Source of the DNA: Marinitoga sp. 38H-ov
Lineage (GTDB): Bacteria; Thermotogota; Thermotogae; Petrotogales; Petrotogaceae
Reading direction: 5' to 3'
Length of the DNA: 63,313 nucleotides
NCBI RefSeq assembly: GCF_011057715.1
Contig: NZ_LNGH01000010.1
Coordinates: forward strand, 1 to 63,313
Shown: in pieces, positions 8,359 through 22,551 of the stretch
Numbering within the stretch: position 1 is the first letter of the stretch
How the letters are laid out: every line of letters starts with the position of its first letter
Position numbers and translations under genes: made by a program
The notes under the pieces: generated by a model
Seen by the model: only the letters and a program-made list of their open reading frames with translations
Told to the model about the DNA's origin: nothing
The model's database searches: none

Positions 8359-10719
8359 GTGAATATATCAAAAAATTGGATATCAGATTATATAGATTTT
8401 AAAGTAGATACAAAAAAATTAGTTGACATGATAAAATTGCATTCTACAAATGTTGAGGGCGTGGAAGAATTAGGGAAAGGCATTAAAGGTGTAGTTGTAG
8501 GAAAAATTATTGATATTAAAGATCATCCTGATGCAGATAAAATAGTTATTTGTACTGTAGATGTAGGGAATAAAAAATTGCAAATTTTAACTGCTGATAA
8601 AACTGTAAAAGTAAATGATTTAGTACCTGTAGCAGTAGATGGGGCTGTATTATCAGGTAATTTTAAAATTAAATCTAGACCTATGAGAGGAATTATGTCA
8701 GAAGGTATGTTTTGTTCATTAGAAGAATTAGGCTTAGAAGAGAAATCGGAATTTGTATATAGAATACCGGAAGATATAGAATTGGGAACAGATTATATAG
8801 AATATTTGAAATTAAAAGATGATATTATTGATATAGAAATTTTTCCAAATAGACCAGATTTATTGTCTTATTTAGGAGTTGCCAAAGAATTTATAGCAAT
8901 TGATGCAGCGGAGAATTTAAGATATCCAGAAATAAAAGAATTAAAAAAAGGAAATGGTTTTCCGGTGAAAATTGAATATGAAGGATGTAAAAGATATGCT
9001 GCATTAGTTATTGAAAATGTTGAAGTTAAACCATCACCTTCATGGTTAGTTAAAAGGTTGGCTACAGCCGGTATTAGAAGTATTAATAATATAGTAGATA
9101 TTACAAATTATGTATTATTGGAAACAGGTCATCCTGTACATGCTTTTGATCTTGATTTAATCGGAAATGAAATAATAGTTAGAAAAGCAAATAAAGGTGA
9201 AAAAGTTGAATTATTAGATGAAAAAGAATATGAAATGAATGGAACTGAAACATTAATTACAGATGGTGAGAAAATACTTGCTTTAGGTGGAATAATGGGA
9301 GGACAAAATTCTGGAATTAATAATGATACAAAAAGGGTATTGTTAGAAGTAGCTTATTTTGATCCTGTGAATATTAGAAAGAGTGCTAGATACCATAAAA
9401 TATCTTCAGATTCTTCATATAGATTTGAACGTGGAGTTGATCCAAATGATGTTGAATTTGTAATGGGAAGACTTGCTTATTTAATAGAAAAATTAGCAAA
9501 TGGAAAAGTAACTTCTTTAATGACAGATGTATATCCTGAAAAAGTTAATCCTAAAAAGGTATTTATTAGAAATAATTATCTAAATGAAAGATTAGGAATT
9601 TCAATTGAAGAAAATAAAACAGAAGAAATTTTAAATAAATTAGACTTTTCATATGAAAAGAAAGAAAGTGGATTTGAGGTAATCGTTCCAACTAGAAGAC
9701 CAGATATTGCTGAAGAAATAGATCTCGTTGAAGAAATTGGAAGAATATATGGTTATCACAATATACCTTCAGTACTGCCAAAAAATAATTTAATAGGCGG
9801 GGTATCTGATTATATTAAATTTAGAGAAAAAATATCAGAAGTAATGAGATTAAATGGATATAATGAAGCATTTACATTTTCATTTATGGATAACTCTAAG
9901 ATGTGGATGAAAAAAGGAGAAGTTTTTTTAGAAAATCCAATTTCATCTGAACTAGGTACTATGAGACCATTATTAGTATATGGAATATTAGAATCAGCAT
10001 CATATAATTTTAGAAATCAAAGTAGAGATATAAAATTATTTGAAATAGGTAAGAGTTTCATAAGTGATGAAAGTTCTGAAACAAAAGTAAAAGAGATAGA
10101 AAAATTAGCTTTTGTTTCCATAGGTGAGGAGAATCCATTAGATTATACAGATAAAAGAATGGTTAATTTTTATACATTTAAGGGATCTCTGGAAAATTTA
10201 TTTAATTATTTTGGAATAGAAGCAGATTATAAGAGAGATAATATTGAAGGTATGTCTTATTCTCAAAGCGCTAAAATATATGTAAATAATCAGGAATTAG
10301 GATTTATGGGTAAAGTTGATATTGATATAGCAAAAGATATTTATGATATAAATCAACCAGTATTTATTGCGGAAATAAATTTAGAAAAAATGTATGAATT
10401 AAAAAGAGATAATAAGAAAAATGTATTATCTTTAGAATATCCGTCAATGAGAAGAGATTACTCTATGATAGTTGATGAAAAAATTACATTTTTTGATATT
10501 AAAAACATTATATTAAAAGTTGGAAAGAAATTAGTGGAGGATATTAAAATATTTGATGTTTATAAAGGTAAAAATATAGGAGATGGAAAAACTAGCTTAA
10601 CAATAACTGTAATCTATAGAGCTAAAGATAGGACATTAACAGATGATGAAATAAATAGAATAGCAGAAAAAACAATAGATAGATTAAAAATGGAATTAGA
10701 TATAAACGTTAGAACATGA
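8359..10719 (+). CDS. pheT: Phenylalanyl-tRNA synthetase beta subunit
   Basis: The 786-residue beta subunit has the expected order: N-terminal domain (MNISKNWISDYIDF), EMAP/OB-fold tRNA-binding domain (about 39-150, VVGKIIDIKDHPDADKI), the B3/B4 editing region (about 210-370, with NIVDITNYVLLETGHPVHAFD), B5 and the catalytic-like core, and the C-terminal anticodon-binding ferredoxin-like domain (about 695-786, YPSMRRDYSMIVDEKITF). It opens with GTG at 8359 behind AGGAGG, in one operon with pheS. Nothing is missing. Confidence 0.96.
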   Translation: MNISKNWISDYIDFKVDTKKLVDMIKLHSTNVEGVEELGKGIKGVVVGKIIDIKDHPDADKIVICTVDVGNKKLQILTADKTVKVNDLVPVAVDGAVLSGNFKIKSRPMRGIMSEGMFCSLEELGLEEKSEFVYRIPEDIELGTDYIEYLKLKDDIIDIEIFPNRPDLLSYLGVAKEFIAIDAAENLRYPEIKELKKGNGFPVKIEYEGCKRYAALVIENVEVKPSPSWLVKRLATAGIRSINNIVDITNYVLLETGHPVHAFDLDLIGNEIIVRKANKGEKVELLDEKEYEMNGTETLITDGEKILALGGIMGGQNSGINNDTKRVLLEVAYFDPVNIRKSARYHKISSDSSYRFERGVDPNDVEFVMGRLAYLIEKLANGKVTSLMTDVYPEKVNPKKVFIRNNYLNERLGISIEENKTEEILNKLDFSYEKKESGFEVIVPTRRPDIAEEIDLVEEIGRIYGYHNIPSVLPKNNLIGGVSDYIKFREKISEVMRLNGYNEAFTFSFMDNSKMWMKKGEVFLENPISSELGTMRPLLVYGILESASYNFRNQSRDIKLFEIGKSFISDESSETKVKEIEKLAFVSIGEENPLDYTDKRMVNFYTFKGSLENLFNYFGIEADYKRDNIEGMSYSQSAKIYVNNQELGFMGKVDIDIAKDIYDINQPVFIAEINLEKMYELKRDNKKNVLSLEYPSMRRDYSMIVDEKITFFDIKNIILKVGKKLVEDIKIFDVYKGKNIGDGKTSLTITVIYRAKDRTLTDDEINRIAEKTIDRLKMELDINVRT

Positions 10720-10758
10720 ATAAAATGTTAAAAAAATACAAAAATTAAAATTTTATAT

Positions 10759-10785
10759 TAATATCTGGCAGTTTTAAGACGATAT
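10759..10785 (+). promoter_or_regulatory. Candidate sigma-28 promoter for the flgM operon
   Basis: TAAT (10759-10762), 15 nt, GACGATAT (10778-10785), compared with TAAA-N15-GCCGATAA: 3/4 and 6/8 with exact spacing, 48 nt before the flgM ATG. Class III flagellar operons such as flgM-flgK are typical sigma-28 targets. Confidence 0.4.
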
Positions 10786-10832
10786 ATATTTTGTTAAGGA
10801 TAATTTATTGGTATTTTCTCGGAGGTGTAATT

Positions 10833-11120
10833 ATGGATATAAATAAATTAAATGGTGCATATCAACAATATATAAACGAAACGTTAAAAAAAGAAAATAA
10901 AATAGGGAAAACCTCTAATGGGGATAGAATAATAAAACAGGATAACGTTCCTGTAAAAGTTTCAGTTGACGGTTCTTCAAAAAAATACATAGAGATGGCC
11001 AGGAAAGAAATCCCTGATACTAGGGACAACCTCGTGGAAGAGTTGCGCCAGGCCATTGAACAAGGTATATATAAAATAGATCCGGAAAAAATAGCAGAGA
11101 AAATACTTGGAGGTTTCTAA
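10833..11120 (+). CDS. flgM: Anti-sigma-28 factor FlgM
   Basis: A small protein of 95 residues beginning MDINKLNGAYQQYI, with the C-terminal helical half RKEIPDTRDNLVEELRQAIEQGIYKIDPEKIAEKIL, whose pattern ending GxYxIDPxxIAxKIL is the FlgM family signature. FlgM holds FliA inactive until the hook is complete and is then exported. GGAGGTG lies 5 nt before the ATG; a longer in-frame extension upstream is not supported by a ribosome site. It heads the flgM-flgN-flgK-flgL-fliW-csrA operon. Odd: codons for the helix at 10995-11056 are markedly GC-rich compared with the rest of the gene and form inverted repeats. Confidence 0.9.
   Translation: MDINKLNGAYQQYINETLKKENKIGKTSNGDRIIKQDNVPVKVSVDGSSKKYIEMARKEIPDTRDNLVEELRQAIEQGIYKIDPEKIAEKILGGF
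10995..11056 (+). other. GC-rich structured block inside flgM
   Basis: Within an AT-rich gene this 62-nt stretch is about half G+C and uses codons that are rare around it (CTC, GTG, CGC, CAG, GCC). ATGGCC (10995-11000) can pair with GGCCAT (11051-11056), enclosing an inner hairpin TCCCT-AGGGA (11011-11026). CCTCGTGG (11030-11037) is the exact reverse complement of CCACGAGG (11151-11158) in flgN, so a long-range pairing is possible. Function unknown; an RNA regulatory role is inference. Confidence 0.5.
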
Positions 11121-11121
11121 T

Positions 11122-11604
11122 ATGTCGGATATTAATATAAAACAAATAATCCACGAGGAGTTAAATATCCTTGTGGATCTTTTTTATTATATGGAAAAAT
11201 TAAAAGATGGAATTGTAAATAATGAAAAAGTAAATACTTTAAATATTTATGTATCCAAAATAAGCGAGAATGCATTGGTTTTATCAAAAACAGAAAAACA
11301 AAGAATAGACTTATTTGAAAAATTTTCTATGGAAAATAATATAAAGAATAATTTTAATAGTTTTATTGAATATTTTTCTGATAAAGATATTGAAGTAGTA
11401 AATAGTTTAAAATTATTATCTGAAAAGCTAATAGACATTTCTACAATAAATAACACTTTGAAGGAATTATTAAAGGCGAGAATAGAATACAACGATATAT
11501 TAATAAAATTATATATGGAACCCAAAAATAATTTGCCAGTATATAATAAAAATGGAGTATATAATAATTCATTAAATCAAAGCAAAACAAACTGGCAGGG
11601 TTGA
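11122..11604 (+). CDS. flgN: FlgN-family flagellar chaperone
   Basis: The 160-residue, almost all-helical protein (IKQIIHEELNILVDLFYYMEKLKDGI at the start, then long heptad-like stretches) lies where FlgN is found, between flgM and flgK. FlgN is the export chaperone of the hook-filament junction proteins FlgK and FlgL, encoded next in this operon. The identity rests mainly on position, length and helix content, since the family is weakly conserved. I take the ATG at 11122, one nucleotide after the flgM stop, with GGAGG 8 nt upstream. Its 5' end contains a terminator-like hairpin (11149-11185). Confidence 0.75.
   Translation: MSDINIKQIIHEELNILVDLFYYMEKLKDGIVNNEKVNTLNIYVSKISENALVLSKTEKQRIDLFEKFSMENNIKNNFNSFIEYFSDKDIEVVNSLKLLSEKLIDISTINNTLKELLKARIEYNDILIKLYMEPKNNLPVYNKNGVYNNSLNQSKTNWQG
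11149..11185 (+). terminator. Terminator-like hairpin inside the flgN coding region
   Basis: Eleven-bp stem with one G-U pair (11149-11159 with 11168-11178), 8-nt loop, then C and six Ts. It has the shape of an intrinsic terminator but lies in codons 10-22 of flgN, downstream of flgM and upstream of flgK. The 5' arm overlaps the sequence that could pair with 11030-11037 in flgM, so an attenuator with an alternative fold is conceivable. Confidence 0.45.
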
Positions 11605-11613
11605 GGTGATAAA

Positions 11614-14526
11614 ATGTCATTATTTAATACATTAAATGTTGGAGTTTCTGGGTTATTTGCCAGTAAAACAGCAATGAATGCTACTTCTCAAAATATAGCT
11701 AATGTTAATAATCCGAATTATTCTAGAAGAGAAGTTAATATGACAACAAATCTTCCTCTAAATTATGGAGGATTAGAACTTGGAACTGGAACAAAGATAG
11801 AATCCCTGCAAAGAATTAGAGATCAGTTTTTAGATATACAATATAGAAAATATAACAGTGAATACGGATATTGGAAAACTATAAATTCTAATTTAAATTA
11901 TGTTCAATCATTATATGGCGAACCATCAGAAGAAGGGTTTAGAAAATCAATAGATGAATTTTGGGGTTCTATTCATAAAATATTATCTGAACCAACAGTT
12001 CCTGAAAATAAAAGAGAATTGGTATATAAAGCTAATGAACTTGCAAATAATTTAAGTTCATTATATTCTAATATAGAAAATGTTAAAGAAGGCTTAAACA
12101 ATGATATACAATCTAGTATAGATGAAATTAATTCTAAATTAGAGGATTTAGCAAATTTAAATAAGCAAATTAAAGATTTAAAAAATCAAAATATTAGTCC
12201 AAATGATTTATTAGATAAAAGAGATGTTCTTTTAGACGAATTATCAGAAAAATTTAGTTTTACAGTCAAAGAAAAAAATGATGGGCAAATAAGTATTATT
12301 TTAAAAAATCATGAAATATTGAATGGAGAAATATATAAAAAAATAAGTTTAAAAGAAATCAATGGAAATAAATATTTACATATAGACAATGGAATATTGT
12401 CATTAAAAGAAGGTTCTTTAGGTGCAATGTTTGAATTAAGAGATAATTTATTAAATGAGCAAATGAATAGAATAAATGAATTTGCTACAACATTTTATGA
12501 CACATTAAATTTGATTCATGAAGAGGGTTTTGATTTAACTGGAACTATAAGAGGTATGAATTTTTTTGATGAAATACAATCTGGTAATTTAGCAACTGAT
12601 AAGTTAAGAAGAATTGCCGGAAATAAATTATTAAGTGGTCAGCCCAAAAATTATGTAGATAGTTATATTAATTTTAATCAAAATACTATCAGTGATATAA
12701 AATTAAACTTTGATATAGGTTCTGGAGAATTAATTAATTTAGAAAGTGGATTTGAAGATAACGGAGATTATATCGCTACATTAAATTCTGGGGATTCGTT
12801 AGATAATTTGTTATCCGGTAATAAATTTAGAGGTAATTTTAATTATAACTATAGTACTAATGGAGGATTATTAACTTTTTCAAATGAAGGTGGAGTTTCT
12901 TTAGATAATAGATTAATTATTGATTTCAATAGAAATATTTTTAAGCAATTAGGATTGCCTTCAAAAGATATTCAAGCATTAAAATGGACTAATATTCCAA
13001 CTACTCAAGGGATAATGACATTTAAAGGCCCGGAAAATTATTCTGAAACTCTTAATTTGCAAGGTATTACTTCATTAAATGAAATTGCTCAAAGAATTAA
13101 TGCGGATGCTGACGGTGATGGGAATACAGATGGTGGATTAAAATTAGTTAGAGCATTTGTTAGAAATAATGAATTATATATTGCTCCAACTGATTCTGCA
13201 TATAATGATATGAAAAATGTTATAATAGATGATCCCAATGGGATGCTACATGAAATGAATTCTTCTTCAGTTGATTTATCTGTTTTAGATTCATCACAGA
13301 ATTCTTTAAAAAACGCATTTGGATTATATGCATATATGACTAAATCAGTTGATTTATCTTCTTATCAGTCAACTGATAATGTTGATATTACAATAAATTA
13401 TAAAGATGGAACGCAATATATTAATTCAATTCAAAAGTCGTTATTAAATGGTAGCTTAATAGGAACATCTGGAGAATTTCAGATTTCTCAAAATGGTGAA
13501 GAATTTGAGATATTACCTGGAGCCGATGGAACTACATATAGTTGGGATAAAGTTGACAGTATAGAAATAAAAATAAATGGAAGTCCTATAAAAATTGAGA
13601 ACTTCTACTATGATAAATCATCAGCAGCAAATAAACTTGTTTCTCAAGGATGGGTGTTAGATAATCAAACAGCATCATTAAACTTAAAATCTGATTTGGA
13701 TTTGAAATGGCGAATGGATTTTATGGACTTTGGATCATTTATTTCTATTCAAGGTAAAAAAATAGAAATAGATTTTAATAGAGATACTCTACAAAGTTTA
13801 TCTGAAAAAATAAATAATTCTAATACAGGAGTTTTATCTTTTTATACACCTGGCGGAAGATTTGTATTAAAAGCAGATAAAACTTTAAATTATGATTTGA
13901 AAAACGCAGAAATAAAAGGACCTGAAAGATTATTTGAAGTATTAGGATTATGGAAACATGAAGATATGTCTCAACAATATTCAGAAAATTTTACTTTTTT
14001 AAATCCTACATACGATTCAACAACATTTGAAAATAAGTTAAAATATGTGTCTAAATTTGCGCTAAATGATGATGTTCAAATAGCAAAAAATTTAAAAGTT
14101 AAAGATTATCTTTTAAGTAATCCAGATATGTTAGCTATGGATTTAGGTAAAATGATAGATTCTGATAATGATGGAGATATAGATACTTTAATTCCATCAG
14201 GAGAACATTCTTCAACATTATGGGAAGAAGGGTATATGTTAAAAAATTCAAAATTGTTTTCTGATGGAAGACATGATTTTGAAGACTATATATCTGATAT
14301 GATAACAGAAGTTGGTCTTACAGGAGAAAAAGCAAAAAGAATGGAAATTAATAGTGATAGTTTAAGAACTGAGTATTTAAATCAAAGAGAAAGTGTTAAA
14401 GGAGTTTCTTTAGATGAAGAAATGGCTAATATGATTAAGTATCAACAAGCATTTAACGCAGCAGCAAAAGTAATTAATGTTGTTGATGGAATGCTTGATA
14501 GAATAATTAATGGATTGATGAGGTGA
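11614..14526 (+). CDS. flgK: Flagellar hook-associated protein 1 FlgK
   Basis: First hook-filament junction protein, assembled outside the cell. The N-terminus (SLFNTLNVGVSGLFASKTAMNA, then SQNIANVNNPNYSRREVN) and the C-terminus (GVSLDEEMANMIKYQQAFNAAAKVINVVDGMLDRIINGL) are the conserved coiled-coil D0/D1 halves of FlgK. At 970 residues it is much longer than the usual 450-650; the extra sequence is in the surface-exposed middle (about residues 300-880), which includes calcium-site-like DADGDGNTDGG and DSDNDGDIDT segments. GAGGTGATAAA precedes the ATG. flgL overlaps the ribosome binding site at its end. Confidence 0.93.
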   Translation: MSLFNTLNVGVSGLFASKTAMNATSQNIANVNNPNYSRREVNMTTNLPLNYGGLELGTGTKIESLQRIRDQFLDIQYRKYNSEYGYWKTINSNLNYVQSLYGEPSEEGFRKSIDEFWGSIHKILSEPTVPENKRELVYKANELANNLSSLYSNIENVKEGLNNDIQSSIDEINSKLEDLANLNKQIKDLKNQNISPNDLLDKRDVLLDELSEKFSFTVKEKNDGQISIILKNHEILNGEIYKKISLKEINGNKYLHIDNGILSLKEGSLGAMFELRDNLLNEQMNRINEFATTFYDTLNLIHEEGFDLTGTIRGMNFFDEIQSGNLATDKLRRIAGNKLLSGQPKNYVDSYINFNQNTISDIKLNFDIGSGELINLESGFEDNGDYIATLNSGDSLDNLLSGNKFRGNFNYNYSTNGGLLTFSNEGGVSLDNRLIIDFNRNIFKQLGLPSKDIQALKWTNIPTTQGIMTFKGPENYSETLNLQGITSLNEIAQRINADADGDGNTDGGLKLVRAFVRNNELYIAPTDSAYNDMKNVIIDDPNGMLHEMNSSSVDLSVLDSSQNSLKNAFGLYAYMTKSVDLSSYQSTDNVDITINYKDGTQYINSIQKSLLNGSLIGTSGEFQISQNGEEFEILPGADGTTYSWDKVDSIEIKINGSPIKIENFYYDKSSAANKLVSQGWVLDNQTASLNLKSDLDLKWRMDFMDFGSFISIQGKKIEIDFNRDTLQSLSEKINNSNTGVLSFYTPGGRFVLKADKTLNYDLKNAEIKGPERLFEVLGLWKHEDMSQQYSENFTFLNPTYDSTTFENKLKYVSKFALNDDVQIAKNLKVKDYLLSNPDMLAMDLGKMIDSDNDGDIDTLIPSGEHSSTLWEEGYMLKNSKLFSDGRHDFEDYISDMITEVGLTGEKAKRMEINSDSLRTEYLNQRESVKGVSLDEEMANMIKYQQAFNAAAKVINVVDGMLDRIINGLMR

Positions 14527-14531
14527 TTAAT

Positions 14532-15428
14532 ATGAGAATTACCCAAGGAATGATAGCAAATAACGCTTTAAAAAATATTAGGAATTCTATGCTAAAAAGA
14601 GAAGAATTAAGTGAACAAATTACTACTGGTAAAAAAATAAATAGACCATCAGATGATCCATCAAAAGCTGGAAAAAGCAGCTATTTAATGAGTAGAAATA
14701 GGATTTTAAATGAATATATTGAAAATATTAAAGGTACAAGATCAGTATTAAAATACTATGATACAGCATTACAAGAAATGCAAACTATTAATCATAGAAT
14801 AAAAGAATTAACCGTACAGGCAGCTGATGATACTAAAACAGTTGAAGATAGACATCATATAGCTTTAGAATTAGAGCAATTAAAAGAACATTTGTATAAA
14901 ATAGCGAATACACAAATAGGGGGAAAATATATTTTTGGTGGTGCAAAAACAAATGTTTCACCAGTAACTAAAGAAAATGAAGCTATAATTATTAATACTC
15001 CTCAAGAAGCCAATATAAGAGCGAAAATTCCTTTAGAGAATATTGAGGTAGAGTATGGAGTAACAGTATATGACGTTTTTAAAACGGATTCTGGAGAAAC
15101 AGCTTTTGGAATTTTAGAAAGATTAATAAATTCTGTAGAAAGTGGAGATAATAATAGTATAGAAAAAGATTTAGGAGCTCTTGATAATATTTTGAACAAC
15201 GTAAATGCAAATTTAGCTAGAGTAGGAAGCATAGATAATATGTTAGAGTCAATGGAAAAAAGATTTGAAAATATAGTAGACAATAATACAGAAATTATAA
15301 ATGATTTAGTAGGAGCAGATCTAACAAAAGCAATAAGTGATTTAACACTTGAACAAACAGCATTACAAGCAGCATTGAAAACTACTGCACAAATATTACC
15401 ACAATCCCTTGTGGATTTTATTAAGTAG
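14532..15428 (+). CDS. flgL: Flagellar hook-associated protein 3 FlgL
   Basis: Second junction protein (298 residues) linking FlgK to the flagellin filament. It begins MRITQGMIANNALKNI, continues with the flagellin-like N-terminal helix (LSEQITTGKKINRPSDDPSKAG) and ends with the flagellin-like C-terminal helix (LTKAISDLTLEQTALQAALKTTAQI). I chose the ATG at 14532, which gives the canonical MRIT start and lies 5 nt after GAGGTGA; the in-frame GTG at 14523 overlaps that site. It is co-transcribed with flgK and fliW, as in Bacillus and Clostridium. Confidence 0.93.
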   Translation: MRITQGMIANNALKNIRNSMLKREELSEQITTGKKINRPSDDPSKAGKSSYLMSRNRILNEYIENIKGTRSVLKYYDTALQEMQTINHRIKELTVQAADDTKTVEDRHHIALELEQLKEHLYKIANTQIGGKYIFGGAKTNVSPVTKENEAIIINTPQEANIRAKIPLENIEVEYGVTVYDVFKTDSGETAFGILERLINSVESGDNNSIEKDLGALDNILNNVNANLARVGSIDNMLESMEKRFENIVDNNTEIINDLVGADLTKAISDLTLEQTALQAALKTTAQILPQSLVDFIK

Positions 15429-15441
15429 GGAGGAGATTTGA

Positions 15442-16419
15442 GTGAGAAAATATCAAACTCGTATAGGTGAAATTGAAGTTGAAGATGATGAAATAATAAT
15501 ATTTGAAGAAGGATTGCCTGGTTTTGAAAATTTAAAAAAATTTGTTATTCTTACATTAAAAGAAACATATCCAATAATGTGGTTGGTTTCTTTAGAAGAC
15601 AATTTAGTATCTTTTCCAATAATGGAACCGAAATTAGTAAAAATAGATTATGAGGTCAAGATACCTAGTGAAATAGGGAAAAAAATAGGTATTAATACAG
15701 AAGATGAAGCAGCTGTTTTTGCCATTATGACAATTCCTCACGATAACCCAGATGATGCAACAATAAATTTAAAAGCTCCTATTATTATATCTAAAACAAC
15801 TAATAAGGGAATTCAATATATATTAGATAATTATGAATTAAAACATAGCATTAAGGATGAAATAATTATTAGTCAAAAATTACTAGAAAATCAAATAAAA
15901 GAAATTTCTAAATTTTCTAAAAATAAAAATAAATACAATACAAAATTTGGAGAGCTAGAATTAACTGATAATGAAATTATTTTCTTTGAAAATGGGATTC
16001 CGGGATTTGAAAATTTGAAAAAATTTTATATTTATTTTTCTAAAGACACATTTCCAATACAGTGGTTATTATCTTTAGAAAATTCAGATATTTCTTTTCC
16101 TATAATAGACCCGTTATTGGTAAGAGTGGATTATTCATTTGACTTACCTAAAGATTTAGTAAATTATTTATCAATAGAAAAGCCCGAAGATGTTTCTATT
16201 TTTGTAATAATGACAATTCCACATGGTGATCCAGAAAATATTACTGTTAATTTAAAGGCTCCTTTGGTTATTTCTAAAAATAATAATAAAGGGATTCAAT
16301 TTATTTTAGACAGCGATGAATATCATTTAAAACATAATGTAAAAGATGAAATTAAAAGAAGTGAAAAAATAATAGAAGAGCAAACTTTGCAAGCACCTAA
16401 AAGCGAAAGGGGTGCATGA
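15442..16419 (+). CDS. fliW: Flagellar assembly factor FliW, tandem two-domain fusion
   Basis: FliW is normally about 150 residues; this protein has 325 and contains two complete FliW domains. Domain 1 (about 1-155) has IIIFEEGLPGFENLKKF, PIMEPKLV and AIMTIPHDNPDDATINLKAP; domain 2 (about 168-312) repeats IIFFENGIPGFENLKKF, PIIDPLLV and VIMTIPHGDPENITVNLKAP. In Bacillus, FliW binds either flagellin or CsrA and so relieves CsrA repression of flagellin translation. The next gene is csrA, starting 1 nt after the stop. The GTG start follows GGGAGGAG. The divergence between the copies suggests an old duplication with no interruption. Confidence 0.93.
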   Translation: MRKYQTRIGEIEVEDDEIIIFEEGLPGFENLKKFVILTLKETYPIMWLVSLEDNLVSFPIMEPKLVKIDYEVKIPSEIGKKIGINTEDEAAVFAIMTIPHDNPDDATINLKAPIIISKTTNKGIQYILDNYELKHSIKDEIIISQKLLENQIKEISKFSKNKNKYNTKFGELELTDNEIIFFENGIPGFENLKKFYIYFSKDTFPIQWLLSLENSDISFPIIDPLLVRVDYSFDLPKDLVNYLSIEKPEDVSIFVIMTIPHGDPENITVNLKAPLVISKNNNKGIQFILDSDEYHLKHNVKDEIKRSEKIIEEQTLQAPKSERGA

Positions 16420-16420
16420 T

Positions 16421-16654
16421 ATGTTAGTTTTATCTAGAAAGCTAAATGAAGGAATAACAATAATGATCGAAGATAAAATATTAAAATTAAAAATTTTATC
16501 AATTGAAGGAAATGCTATCAAATTAGGTTTTGATGGTCCTAAGAATTTTAAAATATATAGAGAAGAAGTATATGAAAGTATAATGGAAGAGAATTTATCA
16601 GCAACAAAAGTTAAAGATATTTCGGAAGTTAAAAAATTATTTGAAAAAAAATAG
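16421..16654 (+). CDS. csrA: Carbon storage regulator CsrA
   Basis: The 77-residue RNA-binding regulator has the classic MLVLSRKLNEGITIMIEDKI start and ends after EEVYESIMEENL plus a short tail. As a dimer it binds GGA-containing hairpins, usually over the ribosome binding site of flagellin mRNA. The ATG at 16421 gives the canonical N-terminus, with AAAGGGG upstream. It is the last gene of the flagellar operon and is followed by a strong terminator. The adjacent FliW is its antagonist in Bacillus. Confidence 0.95.
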   Translation: MLVLSRKLNEGITIMIEDKILKLKILSIEGNAIKLGFDGPKNFKIYREEVYESIMEENLSATKVKDISEVKKLFEKK

Positions 16655-16671
16655 CCCAATGGGCTATTTTT
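16648..16671. terminator. Bidirectional terminator between csrA and tsaB
   Basis: Ten-bp stem AAAATAGCCC/GGGCTATTTT (16648-16657 with 16661-16670) and a 3-nt loop, flanked by A-runs and T-runs, between convergent genes; it overlaps both gene ends. Confidence 0.85.
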
Positions 16672-17344
16672 AATTATATGTATTCTCATCTATTTTAGTA
16701 TTATTTTTCTTTTCAAAGTTTTCAACAGCTAAAGGTTTTTGAAGATAAAGAACTTTTAAATCTTTAGGGGAAACAGCTTTATAATAATTATTTTCAATAT
16801 ATTCTATTATACTATTAGGAGATAATACGTATTGTATAGTTTCATTGTTTAATTTAAGCTTTTCCTTGAAAAATAAACTTTCTTCTCCTAATAAAATAGA
16901 GTCTTGGATAATATTTTTAAGATTGTTAATGGATATTAGATTTGGTTCAAAAATTGTTTTCCCGTTTTCAAAAATATGAACATATGCAGCGTCAACTCTG
17001 GCTTTTTTTAAAATAGCAATTTTTTTGTTTTTATCACCATTATAATTATTATATATTAATTCGGTTGAAATTATAGGGACAACTTTTTTATTTGTATTAA
17101 ATAATAATCCTTGTATAGAAGCAATAGAAATTCGTATACCTGTAAATGAGCCAGGTCCTATTGTGCATCCAAATAAATCAATGTTTTCTAAATTTAAATT
17201 ATTTTTTTTTAATAGTGAATCTATCATAGAGATAATGTAATTGCCAGAATTCTTTTCTTTATTTTCCATATAATAAATGTCGTTGTTACTTTTTAAAGAT
17301 ATTAGTAATCCATTATTTGATGCATCTATGCCTAAAATATTCAA
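16670..17344 (-). CDS. tsaB: tRNA threonylcarbamoyladenosine biosynthesis protein TsaB
   Basis: The 224-residue protein begins MNILGIDASNNGLLISL and has GCTIGPGSFTGIRISIASIQGL, the ASKHA-fold signature of TsaB. TsaB is the partner of TsaD in making t6A37 in ANN-decoding tRNAs and has no catalytic activity of its own. I use the TTG start at 17344 with GGTGGTGA upstream; an ORF extension to 17392 would overlap the divergent gene and lacks a ribosome site. It is transcribed alone, back to back with the YdjM-like gene. Confidence 0.85.
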   Translation of the reverse strand: MNILGIDASNNGLLISLKSNNDIYYMENKEKNSGNYIISMIDSLLKKNNLNLENIDLFGCTIGPGSFTGIRISIASIQGLLFNTNKKVVPIISTELIYNNYNGDKNKKIAILKKARVDAAYVHIFENGKTIFEPNLISINNLKNIIQDSILLGEESLFFKEKLKLNNETIQYVLSPNSIIEYIENNYYKAVSPKDLKVLYLQKPLAVENFEKKNNTKIDENTYN

Positions 17345-17371
17345 AATATCACCACCTGAAAGGAGAATAAT

Positions 17372-17911
17372 ATGCCAAATTTTAAAACACATATAATAAC
17401 AGGTATTTTATTTTATCCAACATATTTTTTGTTATATTCATTTATAATGGATATATTAAATATAGAATTTTATCCAAATGAATCATTGATTTTAGTATCT
17501 TTTTTCTTTTTTGTTTTAGGATCAGATTTACCAGACGTGGATCATAATTTTTCATTGATAAATAAAATTTTTCGAATACTATTAGTTGGTTTAAGTATTT
17601 CTATAATATATAAAATTTCGAGATATTATGATTTTATATCTTTTTTGACAACTAGAAGGTATATTTTAAATACATTCTATATAATATTAGGAATAGTATT
17701 GGGAGGAATACTCGGATTGTTCTTTAATAAAATCACAAAGCATAGAGGGAAATGGCATAATCCTATTACGGGAATACTTATAGGTATCATAACCTATATA
17801 TTAATTACAAATAATTATTATTTTATCGACTTTAATGCATTATTTATATCACTATCAATAGTATTTGGTTTTTTTATACATATATTATTAGATTATAAAT
17901 TTAAATCTTGA
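17372..17911 (+). CDS. Membrane-bound metal-dependent hydrolase-like protein (YdjM/DUF457)
   Basis: A 179-residue membrane protein with about four hydrophobic helices and the YdjM-type polar motifs: an early FKTHIITG His, then GSDLPDVDHNFS (Asp, Asp, His) and KHRGKWHNPITG between helices, and a final IHILLDY. These His and Asp residues are the proposed metal ligands of the family, whose substrate is unknown. AAAGGAGAATA precedes the ATG. Its 3' end overlaps the end of the convergent TPR-like gene by 19 nt, with no terminator in between. Confidence 0.7.
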   Translation: MPNFKTHIITGILFYPTYFLLYSFIMDILNIEFYPNESLILVSFFFFVLGSDLPDVDHNFSLINKIFRILLVGLSISIIYKISRYYDFISFLTTRRYILNTFYIILGIVLGGILGLFFNKITKHRGKWHNPITGILIGIITYILITNNYYFIDFNALFISLSIVFGFFIHILLDYKFKS

Positions 17912-19260
17912 TTTTGTTTCTTTTTATGAGCCATTTTATATGCCATCATAGCCTGTTCAACTTCGTTTAATTCTTCGAGTATTCGAGCCATTAATATATA
18001 TGTTTTATAATCATTTGGATTTTTAAGTAATAATTTTTCTGATACTTTTAAGGCAATTTTATGTAGTTTTAATTTCATATAAAATTCAATGCTTTTATGT
18101 GATGGGAAAAAATAAGGAATAAAAAATATGAAAATTAGAAAAAATATAAATATTCCAAAAAGAAAATAATAAAAATTATTTAAAGTATTTACATTTTCAA
18201 CTTCTGATGAATTTTTTGTTGTTTCTGTACTTTTAATGGTTTCATTTTTTAATGAGGAGTTGTCTATAATATTTTTCAGCTCAATTAGTTCACTTTTTAA
18301 AGGATCTTTTGATTTATCTATTAAAAAAGATATTTTTTCAGGAATATCTTTAAATATAATTTTATTTGAACTTTCAATTCTAATTCTAACGGTTTTTATA
18401 ATTCCGGTTAATAATGTATACAATGTATTCTTTTCAATACTTAAATTTAAAACTTCATCAGTAATGTCTAAAATATTTAGGGTAAAAATTTCTAATTCAT
18501 CAGGATTTATTATATAAATATTTGAAGAAAGTTGCCCTATTTTAGATTTAAGATCAAAATATTTATTTAATAGCGAATATGTTTGTAACTCTTCAGGAGT
18601 TATAATTCCTTGATTTTTTAAGAAATCAAGTAATTTAAAGGCCCCCAAATAATTATTTTCATCTAAGAAATAAGTTGAATTATTTAGAATGTAATTAATA
18701 TCTTTTAATTTAGATTTAGGAATAAATTTTATAACAAATTTTTCCATATCCTTATCTAAAAAAACAGGAGATTTAATAGATTTGTCTATAAAAATTTGTA
18801 GAAATCCTTGATATGTAAATGGCGATATATATTTTTCAATACCTTCCAATTTATATAAATATTTATATGAACTTAATTCCATAATGCCTGTTTCAATAAT
18901 TCTTTTTAAAGTAACAGGGATTTGAGGGAAAATTTTTAATAATAGTTGTGTTTCTTCAAAATTTAGTGAATTATTATATAAACCTAATGAGCTACAAAAT
19001 TTATTAAAATTTTCCTGAATTAAAGGTTCTAAAAAAGGAGCATTTCTATAATTTTCAAAAAAATATTTTTTCGATGATAATACTTCTCCTAAAATACCAA
19101 TTGAAGGGTCAGTTGGGTTTTCTGCTATATATTTAACAAATTCACCCCAAGCATTTTCTAAAGTATCTGGCATTTTAGATAGATTTTTTATATCATCAAT
19201 AGTAATAGAGAGTATAATAACTGAAAATAATAAAAATGAAAATGTTATTAACTTTTTCAT
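17893..19260 (-). CDS. Membrane-anchored protein with C-terminal TPR-like segment
   Basis: I do not recognise the family. The 455-residue protein starts with a signal peptide (KLITFSFLLFSVIILSI), followed by about 340 mostly helical residues, a single transmembrane segment (about 373-396, FYYFLFGIFIFFLIFIFFI), and a cytoplasmic tail of about 55 residues that resembles one or two TPR helices (KNPNDYKTYILMARILEE). The large domain would be outside. It starts 1 nt after the AI-2E transporter stop region and is probably the distal gene of the ansA-transporter operon. GGAGC lies before the ATG. Confidence 0.6.
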   Translation of the reverse strand: MKKLITFSFLLFSVIILSITIDDIKNLSKMPDTLENAWGEFVKYIAENPTDPSIGILGEVLSSKKYFFENYRNAPFLEPLIQENFNKFCSSLGLYNNSLNFEETQLLLKIFPQIPVTLKRIIETGIMELSSYKYLYKLEGIEKYISPFTYQGFLQIFIDKSIKSPVFLDKDMEKFVIKFIPKSKLKDINYILNNSTYFLDENNYLGAFKLLDFLKNQGIITPEELQTYSLLNKYFDLKSKIGQLSSNIYIINPDELEIFTLNILDITDEVLNLSIEKNTLYTLLTGIIKTVRIRIESSNKIIFKDIPEKISFLIDKSKDPLKSELIELKNIIDNSSLKNETIKSTETTKNSSEVENVNTLNNFYYFLFGIFIFFLIFIFFIPYFFPSHKSIEFYMKLKLHKIALKVSEKLLLKNPNDYKTYILMARILEELNEVEQAMMAYKMAHKKKQNQDLNL

Positions 19261-19261
19261 C

Positions 19262-20275
19262 TTAGCTCCTTTCTAATTCAGGTTTTATATAAGTATTCCA
19301 AAAAACTTTTATTATCATAGCAATAGGTACAGCAATTAAAGCTCCAGTAAGGTTTATTAAAGACCCTAAAATTAATAATGAGAATATTGTAACTACAGGA
19401 TTTACTCTTCCATAATCTTTCATTATAGATATAAAAATTATGAAAGCTATTCCATGTATAATAGACATTATTATTAAAAAAATCAGCATGGTCGTAATCC
19501 CGCTAGATACACCTACTATAATCATAGGTATAAATTCTAATACTACACCTATAACAGGAATGAAATTAGTAACAGCTGCCCAGAAACTCAGCAATAATTG
19601 ATATTTAATTCCCAAAAAAGACATTACAAAGAAAGCAGAAACTCCTACAAAAGCTGATGCAAATAGAGTAGCTACCACATAATGTTCTATTTGATTAAAT
19701 GTTTCATTATAGAATGCTTTAGCAGAATTTCGTAATGATTTTGGGTATAAATATTGTAATTTTTGTTTAAAAGAGTCAAAATAAAAGCTAAAATATATAG
19801 TGCCTATAGTTAAGAAAAATAAAAAAGTAAATGCTTTTTGACCATATGTGGGAATTAATTCTATTATATTTGATAATAGTTCAATAATTTTTGGTTGAAG
19901 ACCATTCATAAAATTTTCAATATTATTTATAATATTTTCTGGCTGATTTTGTAATAGTATTTTCCATTGAGCCTTTTGAAAGAAATCATTGAGAAAAATA
20001 ATAAAATTACTTATTTCTTTTATTACTGTAGGTATTAATAATACTAATAATAAGTATAAGAAAAATAATGAGGATATTAATGATATTACTGTAGCGATTT
20101 TCATAGGGATTTTAAAATAATTTAATCCTTTAGCTATTAAGTTTATAGCTAAAACAAAACCTAAAGTAAATATAATAATAGTAAATACATCCGTTGAAAT
20201 GAAGGATATACTTATAAATAATAAAAGATATATAACTGTAAATAAAGCACCTCTAAGGTTAGTGCTTAGTTTCAT
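19262..20275 (-). CDS. AI-2E family transporter
   Basis: The 337-residue membrane protein has about eight hydrophobic segments in the AI-2E/TqsA family pattern: paired helices at the N-terminus, a long amphipathic soluble stretch (about 75-150), and C-terminal helices with AVTNFIPVIGVVLEFIPMIIVG and NLTGALIAVPIAM, the typical family motif blocks. Members export varied substrates or act as Na+/H+ antiporters; the name says little about the cargo. I chose the ATG at 20275 (MKLSTNL), behind GGAG. It begins within the stop region of the asparaginase gene, so translation is coupled. Confidence 0.85.
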   Translation of the reverse strand: MKLSTNLRGALFTVIYLLLFISISFISTDVFTIIIFTLGFVLAINLIAKGLNYFKIPMKIATVISLISSLFFLYLLLVLLIPTVIKEISNFIIFLNDFFQKAQWKILLQNQPENIINNIENFMNGLQPKIIELLSNIIELIPTYGQKAFTFLFFLTIGTIYFSFYFDSFKQKLQYLYPKSLRNSAKAFYNETFNQIEHYVVATLFASAFVGVSAFFVMSFLGIKYQLLLSFWAAVTNFIPVIGVVLEFIPMIIVGVSSGITTMLIFLIIMSIIHGIAFIIFISIMKDYGRVNPVVTIFSLLILGSLINLTGALIAVPIAMIIKVFWNTYIKPELERS

Positions 20276-20276
20276 T

Positions 20277-21263
20277 TTAATCAACTCCATTAAATTCAAA
20301 GTATTTTCTTAATTCTTCAATATTATTTGTTACACCTAATGCTACTGTTAATTTAATTCTAGCTTTTTGACCTGATACTTCATTGCCTAAAATAGCCCCT
20401 TTATTTTTTAAATCTGCACCGCCACCATGATATCCATACACACCTAATACTCTTCCTTTAAAGCATCTTGATACGACAATAACAGGTATATTTTTTTCTT
20501 TTACTAACCATTCTATTTTATCGGCAACTTTTGGTGGAACATTACCTCTTCCAAACCCTTCAACAACAACTCCTTTAAATCCTAGTTCTGGTAAAATGCT
20601 TAATATAGACCCGTCATCGCCTGTATATGTTTTAATTAATGCAACCTTATCTTCTACGTCAATAGCATCAATATGCATACGTAATAATGACTCTCTATAA
20701 AATATTATAGCATCTTCATCAACTATTCCAAGTGGTCCATAACCTGGGGAATCAAATGTAGCTACATTACTAGTATAAGTTTTTGTAACTTCTCTTGCAG
20801 AATGTATTTCATCATTTAAACATACAAGAACACCTTTATTATAAGCCTTGTTTGATGAAGCGACTCTAACAGATGAAATTAAGTTTGCAGGGCCATCTGT
20901 GCTAGGTTCATTCCAATTTCTCATAGCTGCAGTTAATACTATGGGTTTTTTTTCGTTTAAAACTAAATCTAAAAAGTATGCAGTTTCTTCTAAGGTATCA
21001 GTTCCATGGGTTATTACAACACCATCTATTTCATCTTTAGAAAGAATATTTTTTACAAATTTTGATAATTCAAACATAATTTTTGGAGTCATATGAGGAC
21101 TTGGTATATTAGAAAATTCGATTAATTCTGTTTCTGCAATTTTCTTTAATTCGGGTATTTCATTTAAATGTTTATTTCTTTCTTCTGAAGGTATTACACC
21201 TAAAAGTGGATTATGTTCCATTGCTATTGTACCGCCAGTAGTAATTATAGCTATTTTTCCCAT
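20277..21263 (-). CDS. ansA: L-asparaginase
   Basis: A 328-residue asparaginase with both catalytic triads in view: IITTGGTIAM near the N-terminus (first Thr), then VITHGTDTLEETAYFLDL (second Thr and Asp) and a Lys-containing strand AAMRN. There is no signal peptide, so it is the cytoplasmic type, which converts asparagine to aspartate and ammonia. The C-terminal part (VVEGFGRGNVPPK, then VVSRCFKGRV) is normal for the family. The start has AAAGGAGA. It heads an operon with the AI-2E transporter and the TPR-like gene. Confidence 0.93.
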   Translation of the reverse strand: MGKIAIITTGGTIAMEHNPLLGVIPSEERNKHLNEIPELKKIAETELIEFSNIPSPHMTPKIMFELSKFVKNILSKDEIDGVVITHGTDTLEETAYFLDLVLNEKKPIVLTAAMRNWNEPSTDGPANLISSVRVASSNKAYNKGVLVCLNDEIHSAREVTKTYTSNVATFDSPGYGPLGIVDEDAIIFYRESLLRMHIDAIDVEDKVALIKTYTGDDGSILSILPELGFKGVVVEGFGRGNVPPKVADKIEWLVKEKNIPVIVVSRCFKGRVLGVYGYHGGGADLKNKGAILGNEVSGQKARIKLTVALGVTNNIEELRKYFEFNGVD

Positions 21264-21282
21264 AAATATCTCCTTTCATTTA

Positions 21283-22551
21283 TTATGTAACTTTTATTTT
21301 TGATACATAAAAAGGTATTAAAGTATTATTTGGATAGAAATAATAACCATAACCATCAAAAAAATATTTTATATTAAATTTTTCAAGATCAATTTTTTCA
21401 AATTTAATATTATCATATTTATTTTTTATATATTCCATATTTAAAGTATTTTCTTCCTTAGAAATAGTGCATGTAGAGTATACTATAGTTCCTTCGCTTT
21501 TTATTAAATTTTCTATAGCATTCTCAATTAAGTCTCTTTGTGTCTTTGAATATAAATTAAATTCTTTTTTTGTTATTCTATGTATAACTTCAGGGTGTAT
21601 TGAAGTAGTTCCTAATGAAGAACATGGTGCATCAATAAGTATTTTATCATATTTTTCTTCAGAATACTCTATTCCGGAAATTAATTTAGTATTTATTATA
21701 TCTATACCAAGTCTTTTACTATTTGAATTAACTAATTCAAGTCTATCAATATCAATGTCTAATGCTAATATAGTTCCAGTATTATTCATCAATTGAGCTA
21801 ATTCTGTGGTTTTTCCTCCTGGTGCGGAACACATATCAAGAACTTTTTCTCCTGCCTTTGGATCTAAAATTAAAGGTATTATTTGAGAACTTTCATGTTG
21901 AATATAAAAATATCCGTTTTTATAATATTCGGTATTTTCCAAAGGAAATTTTGGATTTTTTATAATAATTCCAAAAGGGGAATGTATTGTTAATTCGGCA
22001 TCATAATCATTTAAAATATTAAATAATTCTTCTCTAGAAATTTTTAAAGTATTTGTTCTTAAAGTAAGTGGATTAATAGAATAGCTTTTTTTCATAAATT
22101 CTTCTACAAAATCTTTTGGAAAATTCTCATTTAAATAATCATATAACCATTTTGGGATTGAATATTGTATCCATTTAGGCAACTTAATTTCATCTTTTCT
22201 ACTCAATAAATTTTTTAATGTAGCATTTACAAAACCTCTAACTTTTTTGTTTTTAGCAATTTTTACCGTTTCATTTACTGCTACATATGGTTTGAAATTA
22301 TTTAAAATTTGATAAGCGCCTAACCTTAAAATCCATTTTGATGCAGGAGGAATATTTTTATAATTTTTTATAAGTTTTTTTAAATAAAAGTCTATTTTAA
22401 CAAGATTTCTAATAGTGCCCCATACGAGATTTTTTAATAAAGCCATATCTTGATTTGAATAAATATTTGTAAAATAATCAAAAGATTTTTGTGGAATATA
22501 ATGTTTTTTATCAAATTCTCTTAGTAAAAGATAAGCATCTTTTCTAACCAT
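21283..22551 (-). CDS. rsmB: 16S rRNA (cytosine967-C5)-methyltransferase RsmB
   Basis: The 422-residue protein joins an N-terminal NusB-like RNA-binding domain (about 1-130, with LRLGAYQILN) to a C-terminal m5C methyltransferase. The SAM loop is EKVLDMCSAPGGKTTELAQ, the catalytic centre holds DAPCSSLG and YSTCTIS, with the two cysteines used by the RsmB/RsmF class. It methylates C967 of 16S rRNA in the cytoplasm. I place the start at ATG 22551 (MVRKDAY) behind GAGGTGA; a GTG three codons upstream lies inside that site. Followed by ansA after 19 nt. Confidence 0.9.
   Translation of the reverse strand: MVRKDAYLLLREFDKKHYIPQKSFDYFTNIYSNQDMALLKNLVWGTIRNLVKIDFYLKKLIKNYKNIPPASKWILRLGAYQILNNFKPYVAVNETVKIAKNKKVRGFVNATLKNLLSRKDEIKLPKWIQYSIPKWLYDYLNENFPKDFVEEFMKKSYSINPLTLRTNTLKISREELFNILNDYDAELTIHSPFGIIIKNPKFPLENTEYYKNGYFYIQHESSQIIPLILDPKAGEKVLDMCSAPGGKTTELAQLMNNTGTILALDIDIDRLELVNSNSKRLGIDIINTKLISGIEYSEEKYDKILIDAPCSSLGTTSIHPEVIHRITKKEFNLYSKTQRDLIENAIENLIKSEGTIVYSTCTISKEENTLNMEYIKNKYDNIKFEKIDLEKFNIKYFFDGYGYYFYPNNTLIPFYVSKIKVT

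Follow-up and report, generated by a model that had tools for sequence, protein, structure and literature searches.

A tandem two-domain FliW encoded beside csrA in the genus Marinitoga

The locus considered here lies in a stretch of 63,313 nucleotides from contig NZ_LNGH01000010.1 of Marinitoga sp. 38H-ov (hereafter the window) and contains a fliW gene that codes for two FliW domains in tandem, placed between flgL and csrA (Table 1). FliW balances the supply of flagellin through the partner it binds, which is flagellin itself or the RNA-binding regulator CsrA, and it is usually a protein of one domain and about 145-155 aa. A FlgN-like gene is probably the first gene of a flgN-flgK-flgL-fliW-csrA unit, and the order flgK-flgL-fliW-csrA is common to Marinitoga and its sister genera. 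The stop codon of fliW and the start codon of csrA are separated by a single nucleotide. Since the likely csrA Shine-Dalgarno (SD) sequence lies inside fliW and the terminal ERGA codons of the tandem gene are invariant across the Marinitoga genomes, the arrangement is consistent with translational coupling, and fliW and csrA are probably coupled. csrA is present in a single copy in the Marinitoga sp. 38H-ov genome. No Rfam model matched positions 9000-22000 of the window at the gathering threshold.

Table 1. Features of the fliW-csrA locus; positions are those of the window.
Feature	Position	Strand	Remarks
FlgN-like chaperone gene	11107..11604	+	27.0 bits, slightly under the Pfam cut-off of 30.5
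flgK	11614..14526	+	970 aa
flgL	14523..15428	+	13 nt upstream of fliW
tandem fliW gene	15442..16419	+	GTG start, 325 aa, two PF02623 domains
FliW domain A	15496..15849	+	PF02623, 124.2 bits, E 4e-36; residues about 19-136; folded core about 1-137
inter-domain helix (joint)	15853..15918	+	residues 138-159; low-to-moderate confidence
FliW domain B	15979..16338	+	PF02623, 132.6 bits, E 1e-38; residues 180-299; folded core about 163-305
likely csrA ribosome-binding site AAAGGGG	16406..16412	+	within the 3' end of fliW; inferred from sequence
csrA	16421..16654	+	77 aa; PF02599, 64 bits against a cut-off of 27
terminator-like hairpin 3' of csrA	16647..16671	+	consensus match only

The initial annotation had proposed that two full FliW domains are fused in one protein next to csrA and that each retains the motifs PGFENLKKF and IMTIPH, and every part of this description was borne out. 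The profile search found two PF02623 matches, both far above chance, in one open frame (15442-16419) with no stop between domains A and B, and the ATG directly after this frame opens a gene matching the CsrA family. The first motif reads GLPGFENLKKF in domain A and GIPGFENLKKF in domain B, the second IMTIPHDNP and IMTIPHGDP, respectively, and the two domains are 52% identical to each other. As a whole, the tandem protein scores 249 bits against a PF02623 cut-off of 25, and it also exceeds the cut-off of the NCBIfam FliW equivalogs. Profile, fold, invariant residues and the flagellar/csrA neighbourhood all place it within PF02623; where it departs from the family is in the usual, though non-defining, architecture of a single domain of about 150 aa, in place of which it has two domains and 325 aa. 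The double gene is not an assembly artefact, because the same intact frame is found in six further, independent Marinitoga genomes, and the E values below 1e-35 rule out a chance match as well.

In a profile search of 103 Thermotogota genomes, the double FliW was found in one open frame in all seven Marinitoga genomes (325-332 aa) and in none of the 71 other FliW-bearing genomes, where all frames are single-domain; one of the genomes (G055) has an extra partial FliW match on another contig, beside a single-domain frame. Among these genomes the form is thus confined to one genus and is not common in the phylum. In a pattern-based scan covering 84,980 species genomes, the best 80 loci included only one double FliW, that of Marinitoga lauensis LG1 (G041; NZ_QHLX01000003.1), which is one of the six other Marinitoga genomes and not an additional case; as these 80 loci come mostly from Bacillota and Thermotogota and from few other phyla, doubles elsewhere are still possible. 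No relative was found among viral contigs with the query used, and the FliW chains recovered in a search of the PDB are all 151-163 aa long. Helicobacter and its relatives also have multiple FliW domains in a genome, but there FliW1 and FliW2 are encoded by separate, unfused genes. The literature searched, mostly papers available without subscription, contained no joint mention of FliW and Marinitoga, no instance of the phrase 'FliW domain' and no account of a fused FliW, so that the double form does not appear there as something already described. What varies is the covalent doubling; in sequence and fold the protein otherwise belongs to the FliW family, and it would be expected to work in the same way.

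A tree of 53 domains sheds light on how the doubling arose. All A domains form one clade and all B domains another (100/98 in both cases), and the two clades join at a node of moderate support (89/63), beside the single FliWs from other members of the family. Because the A and B clades adjoin the family's single FliWs at a shared flgK-flgL-fliW-csrA locus, an old in-place duplication is indicated, and the simplest history would be a tandem duplication and fusion before the radiation of Marinitoga, with no gene conversion between A and B afterwards. Horizontal acquisition of one of the domains is not favoured, as A and B cluster beside the family's own FliWs, at a node supported at only 89/63.

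Both domains appear to have been kept functional. Nearly all of the columns that are invariant in 39 single FliWs (GIPGF, W-L-S, N-L-x-A-P, Q) are retained in A as well as in B, and among positions with at least 80% conservation in the single FliWs, one deviates in each domain: a conserved Tyr at A-131 is replaced by Leu in five of the seven Marinitoga proteins, although the protein of the window itself retains it, and a conserved Asp at B-214 is replaced by Asn or Lys in six of the seven. Within Marinitoga, pairwise dN/dS falls at about 0.06-0.16 in either domain, with synonymous sites partly saturated, and purifying selection is similar on the two. AlphaFold2 predicts both domains confidently, with blocks mostly above 90 pLDDT (about 80-96 in A, mostly 95-98 in B), whereas the joint reaches only 58-65; the pTM of the whole chain is 0.57, and the model is therefore to be read as two folded units whose relative orientation, set by a joint of about 26 residues, is uncertain. 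Domain B aligns with the FliW structure 5dmd_B at Z 21.6 and an rmsd of 1.5 Å over 138 residues; the structural alignments above background cover domain B, to which the Z figures given here refer, and in the model of domain A most secondary-structure elements follow in FliW order. With the invariant residues kept, dN/dS low and similar, and both folds confidently predicted, the suggestion that neither domain is dead holds, and the reading in which one of them has decayed is rejected.

These observations bear on the question of whether the second domain brings anything qualitatively new. It could be that the fusion was close to neutral and that the second domain merely adds dosage or thermal stability, with no new mode of interaction, an explanation that we regard as unlikely. 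It would account for the retention of the double gene without any qualitative novelty, and the two-to-one ratio of sites would follow automatically from the fusion. That the double form is kept in all sampled Marinitoga, with both copies under purifying selection, argues however that both domains are used, a point of limited force insofar as dosage is itself a use. Another possibility, and the main rival to the explanation that we favour below, is that one domain serves as the flagellin sensor and the other as the CsrA antagonist, the chain holding both partners or passing a signal between them rather than simply exchanging one for the other. A and B may indeed be non-equivalent, since they are only about half identical, show several domain-fixed column differences, and are changed at A-131 and B-214, respectively. 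The C-terminal helix, in particular, is altered in A, and the split between the domains would predate the radiation of the genus without ever having been converted back. On the other hand, nearly all invariant residues persist in both domains and selection on them is similar, and the segments homologous to residues 3-11, 22-28 and 95-115 of B. subtilis FliW, which are protected by flagellin (PMC6070490), are kept in A and B alike. The initial annotation had raised such a division of labour; the findings neither favour nor contradict it, and we hold it to be rather unlikely. At two positions of the joint, E and R predominate among single FliWs whereas all seven A domains carry I, L or V, and to judge from these hydrophobic residues the joint helix could pack against something.

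On the CsrA side, I54 and N58 of the Marinitoga protein are kept, and its C-terminal extension is present. Their counterparts, I/V51 and N55, are both required for Campylobacter CsrA to bind FliW, and N55 is required in Bacillus too (PMC7829508). FliW was found in 78 of the 103 Thermotogota genomes and CsrA likewise in 78 of the 103, with one CsrA match per genome. The listed genomes lacking FliW are the same as those lacking CsrA, and they include an entire family (f2) of the same order. As an observation in its own right, the CsrA of the family to which Marinitoga belongs has three extra residues close to the second strand, relative to B. subtilis and to the majority of other Thermotogota.

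The explanation that we put first, and hold with roughly even confidence, is that the tandem gene specifies a bivalent FliW in which two competent modules have been kept functional. According to this proposal, an in-place duplication in the Marinitoga ancestor would have fused two FliW modules through the C-terminal helix of the first copy. With only one csrA, whose translation is probably coupled to that of fliW, each fliW-csrA translation event would then yield two FliW sites per CsrA subunit, where there was formerly one. Each module would hold cytoplasmic flagellin and, once that flagellin has been exported, would bind the C-terminal helix of CsrA instead, so that the repression of flagellin mRNA by CsrA is lifted. 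As to how the bivalency is used, we prefer the view, already suggested in the initial annotation, that one tandem chain would cover both of the FliW-binding sites on a single CsrA dimer, which fits the published complex of two FliWs and one CsrA dimer: according to PMC7829508, which cites Altegoer 2016, the crystal complex has two FliWs on opposite sides of one dimer. The analyses above establish the two domains, their conservation, origin, selection and predicted folds, the co-occurrence with CsrA and the retained residues on the CsrA side; the coupling, the binding of these partners by the tandem protein, its stoichiometry and the simultaneous occupancy of its two modules are what we infer.

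Comparison with the Hag-FliW-CsrA switch of B. subtilis and Geobacillus thermodenitrificans shows both how close and how different the Marinitoga system is. The fold is shared (Z about 21 to 5dmd, 5dmb and 5jak), as are most invariant residues, the adjacent csrA and the GGA hairpins over the SD sequence of flagellin, but the FliW of those organisms offers one site per chain in contrast to two in Marinitoga. A need for two FliWs per CsrA dimer is not obvious a priori, because RNA binding by a B. subtilis CsrA dimer is already blocked by a single FliW, the system resting at 1:1:1 (PMC6529632). Stoichiometry is thus an explicit puzzle, in that crystals have two FliWs per dimer while B. subtilis works with one (PMC6529632). 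The double FliW is of interest because it makes this stoichiometry directly testable: as a natural covalent FliW dimer present throughout a genus, it is a ready tool for asking if it makes a difference that both faces of CsrA are occupied at once.

The flagellin leaders provide a view of the target side and were examined as a separate line of evidence. Many Thermotogota flagellin leaders carry an upstream GGA hairpin (for example gcccAAGGAAgggc, caccgccAGGGAggcggtg and actgccAGGAAggcagt), the stems of which vary by compensatory changes, in addition to a GGA hairpin over the SD sequence. Upstream hairpins with GGA in the loop were seen at about -45 to -25, counted from the start codon, in leaders such as L194-L196, L198, L199, L203, L206, L207, L224 and L225. 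Together, the upstream and SD hairpins look like BS1 and BS2, the named sites of B. subtilis hag (PMC8523840). The single FliWs of the sister genera (for example G035-G038 and G045-G053) are encoded at the same locus and are the closest relatives of A and B, but these genera differ from Marinitoga in having one FliW domain and, in most canonical flagellin leaders, the additional upstream hairpin. A BS1-type hairpin (-60 to -25) was detected in only one of 17 canonical Marinitoga leaders as against 14 of 17 in the sister genera (Fisher p about 1e-5, kinship ignored). The hairpin overlapping the SD sequence is present in all 17 canonical Marinitoga leaders, and its mean score is 12.6 in Marinitoga versus 7.7 in the sister genera, by a home-made simple count over leaders that are phylogenetically non-independent. 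Two-hairpin and one-hairpin leaders in neighbouring genera thus offer a matched comparison on the target side.

This contrast raises the possibility that the tandem FliW is a 1:1 bivalent clamp on the CsrA dimer that co-evolved with flagellin mRNAs exchanging a pair of CsrA sites for a single strong one, such that, after the loss of BS1, a single CsrA face would repress and the double FliW would cap both faces. It is a special case of the bivalent FliW proposed above, in which one CsrA face would be enough for repression but both would need capping, and the differences in BS1 frequency and in average SD hairpin score are what one would expect from it. We nevertheless consider it distinctly unlikely, as the change amounts to a single event on a single branch, and as BS1 is dispensable in C. 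difficile despite a single FliW (PMC11898703). Five single-FliW genomes (G078, G080, G090, G092 and G095) also lack the upstream hairpin, some of them with an equally strong SD hairpin. With several single-FliW genomes also devoid of BS1, a double FliW is not a necessary consequence of losing it, and BS1 loss as a sufficient cause is weakened accordingly. In addition, ACATGGA or ATATGGA lies within the coding region, at about +20, in most canonical Marinitoga flagellins, rarely within a predicted hairpin, and this GGA might, judging by its sequence, be a second CsrA site that replaces BS1.

Marinitoga flagellins also come in two classes, which suggests yet another use for two domains, one serving the canonical flagellins of 390-400 aa and the other a divergent flagellin of about 270 aa. 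The latter was seen at L086 (1422-2231), L089 (1489-2301), L095 (1204-2016), L098, L101 and L103. It occurs throughout the genus, albeit only as fragments in G041, the sister genera yielded no flagellin of comparable divergence, and its leader has a hairpin over the SD sequence (GGGAGGGANCCC) and a GGA at about -27, all of which would suit a dedicated FliW domain. The proposal is weakened, however, because short, lower-scoring flagellins also occur alongside a single FliW in other Thermotogota families (G086, G088, G097, G099 and G101, among others), and we regard it as most improbable; like the explanation by dosage or stability, it is a weaker rival than the division of labour between flagellin and CsrA.

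Two further features of the flagellar genes at this locus may be mentioned. In G041, flgK is split into several frames and flgL is shortened (L035), possibly through sequencing frameshifts, and the double fliW there is intact. FlgK measures 970-974 aa in Marinitoga, whereas most sister genera have a protein of 801-839 aa (870 aa in G052), and since it is longer than in most of them, its outer domains are probably expanded.
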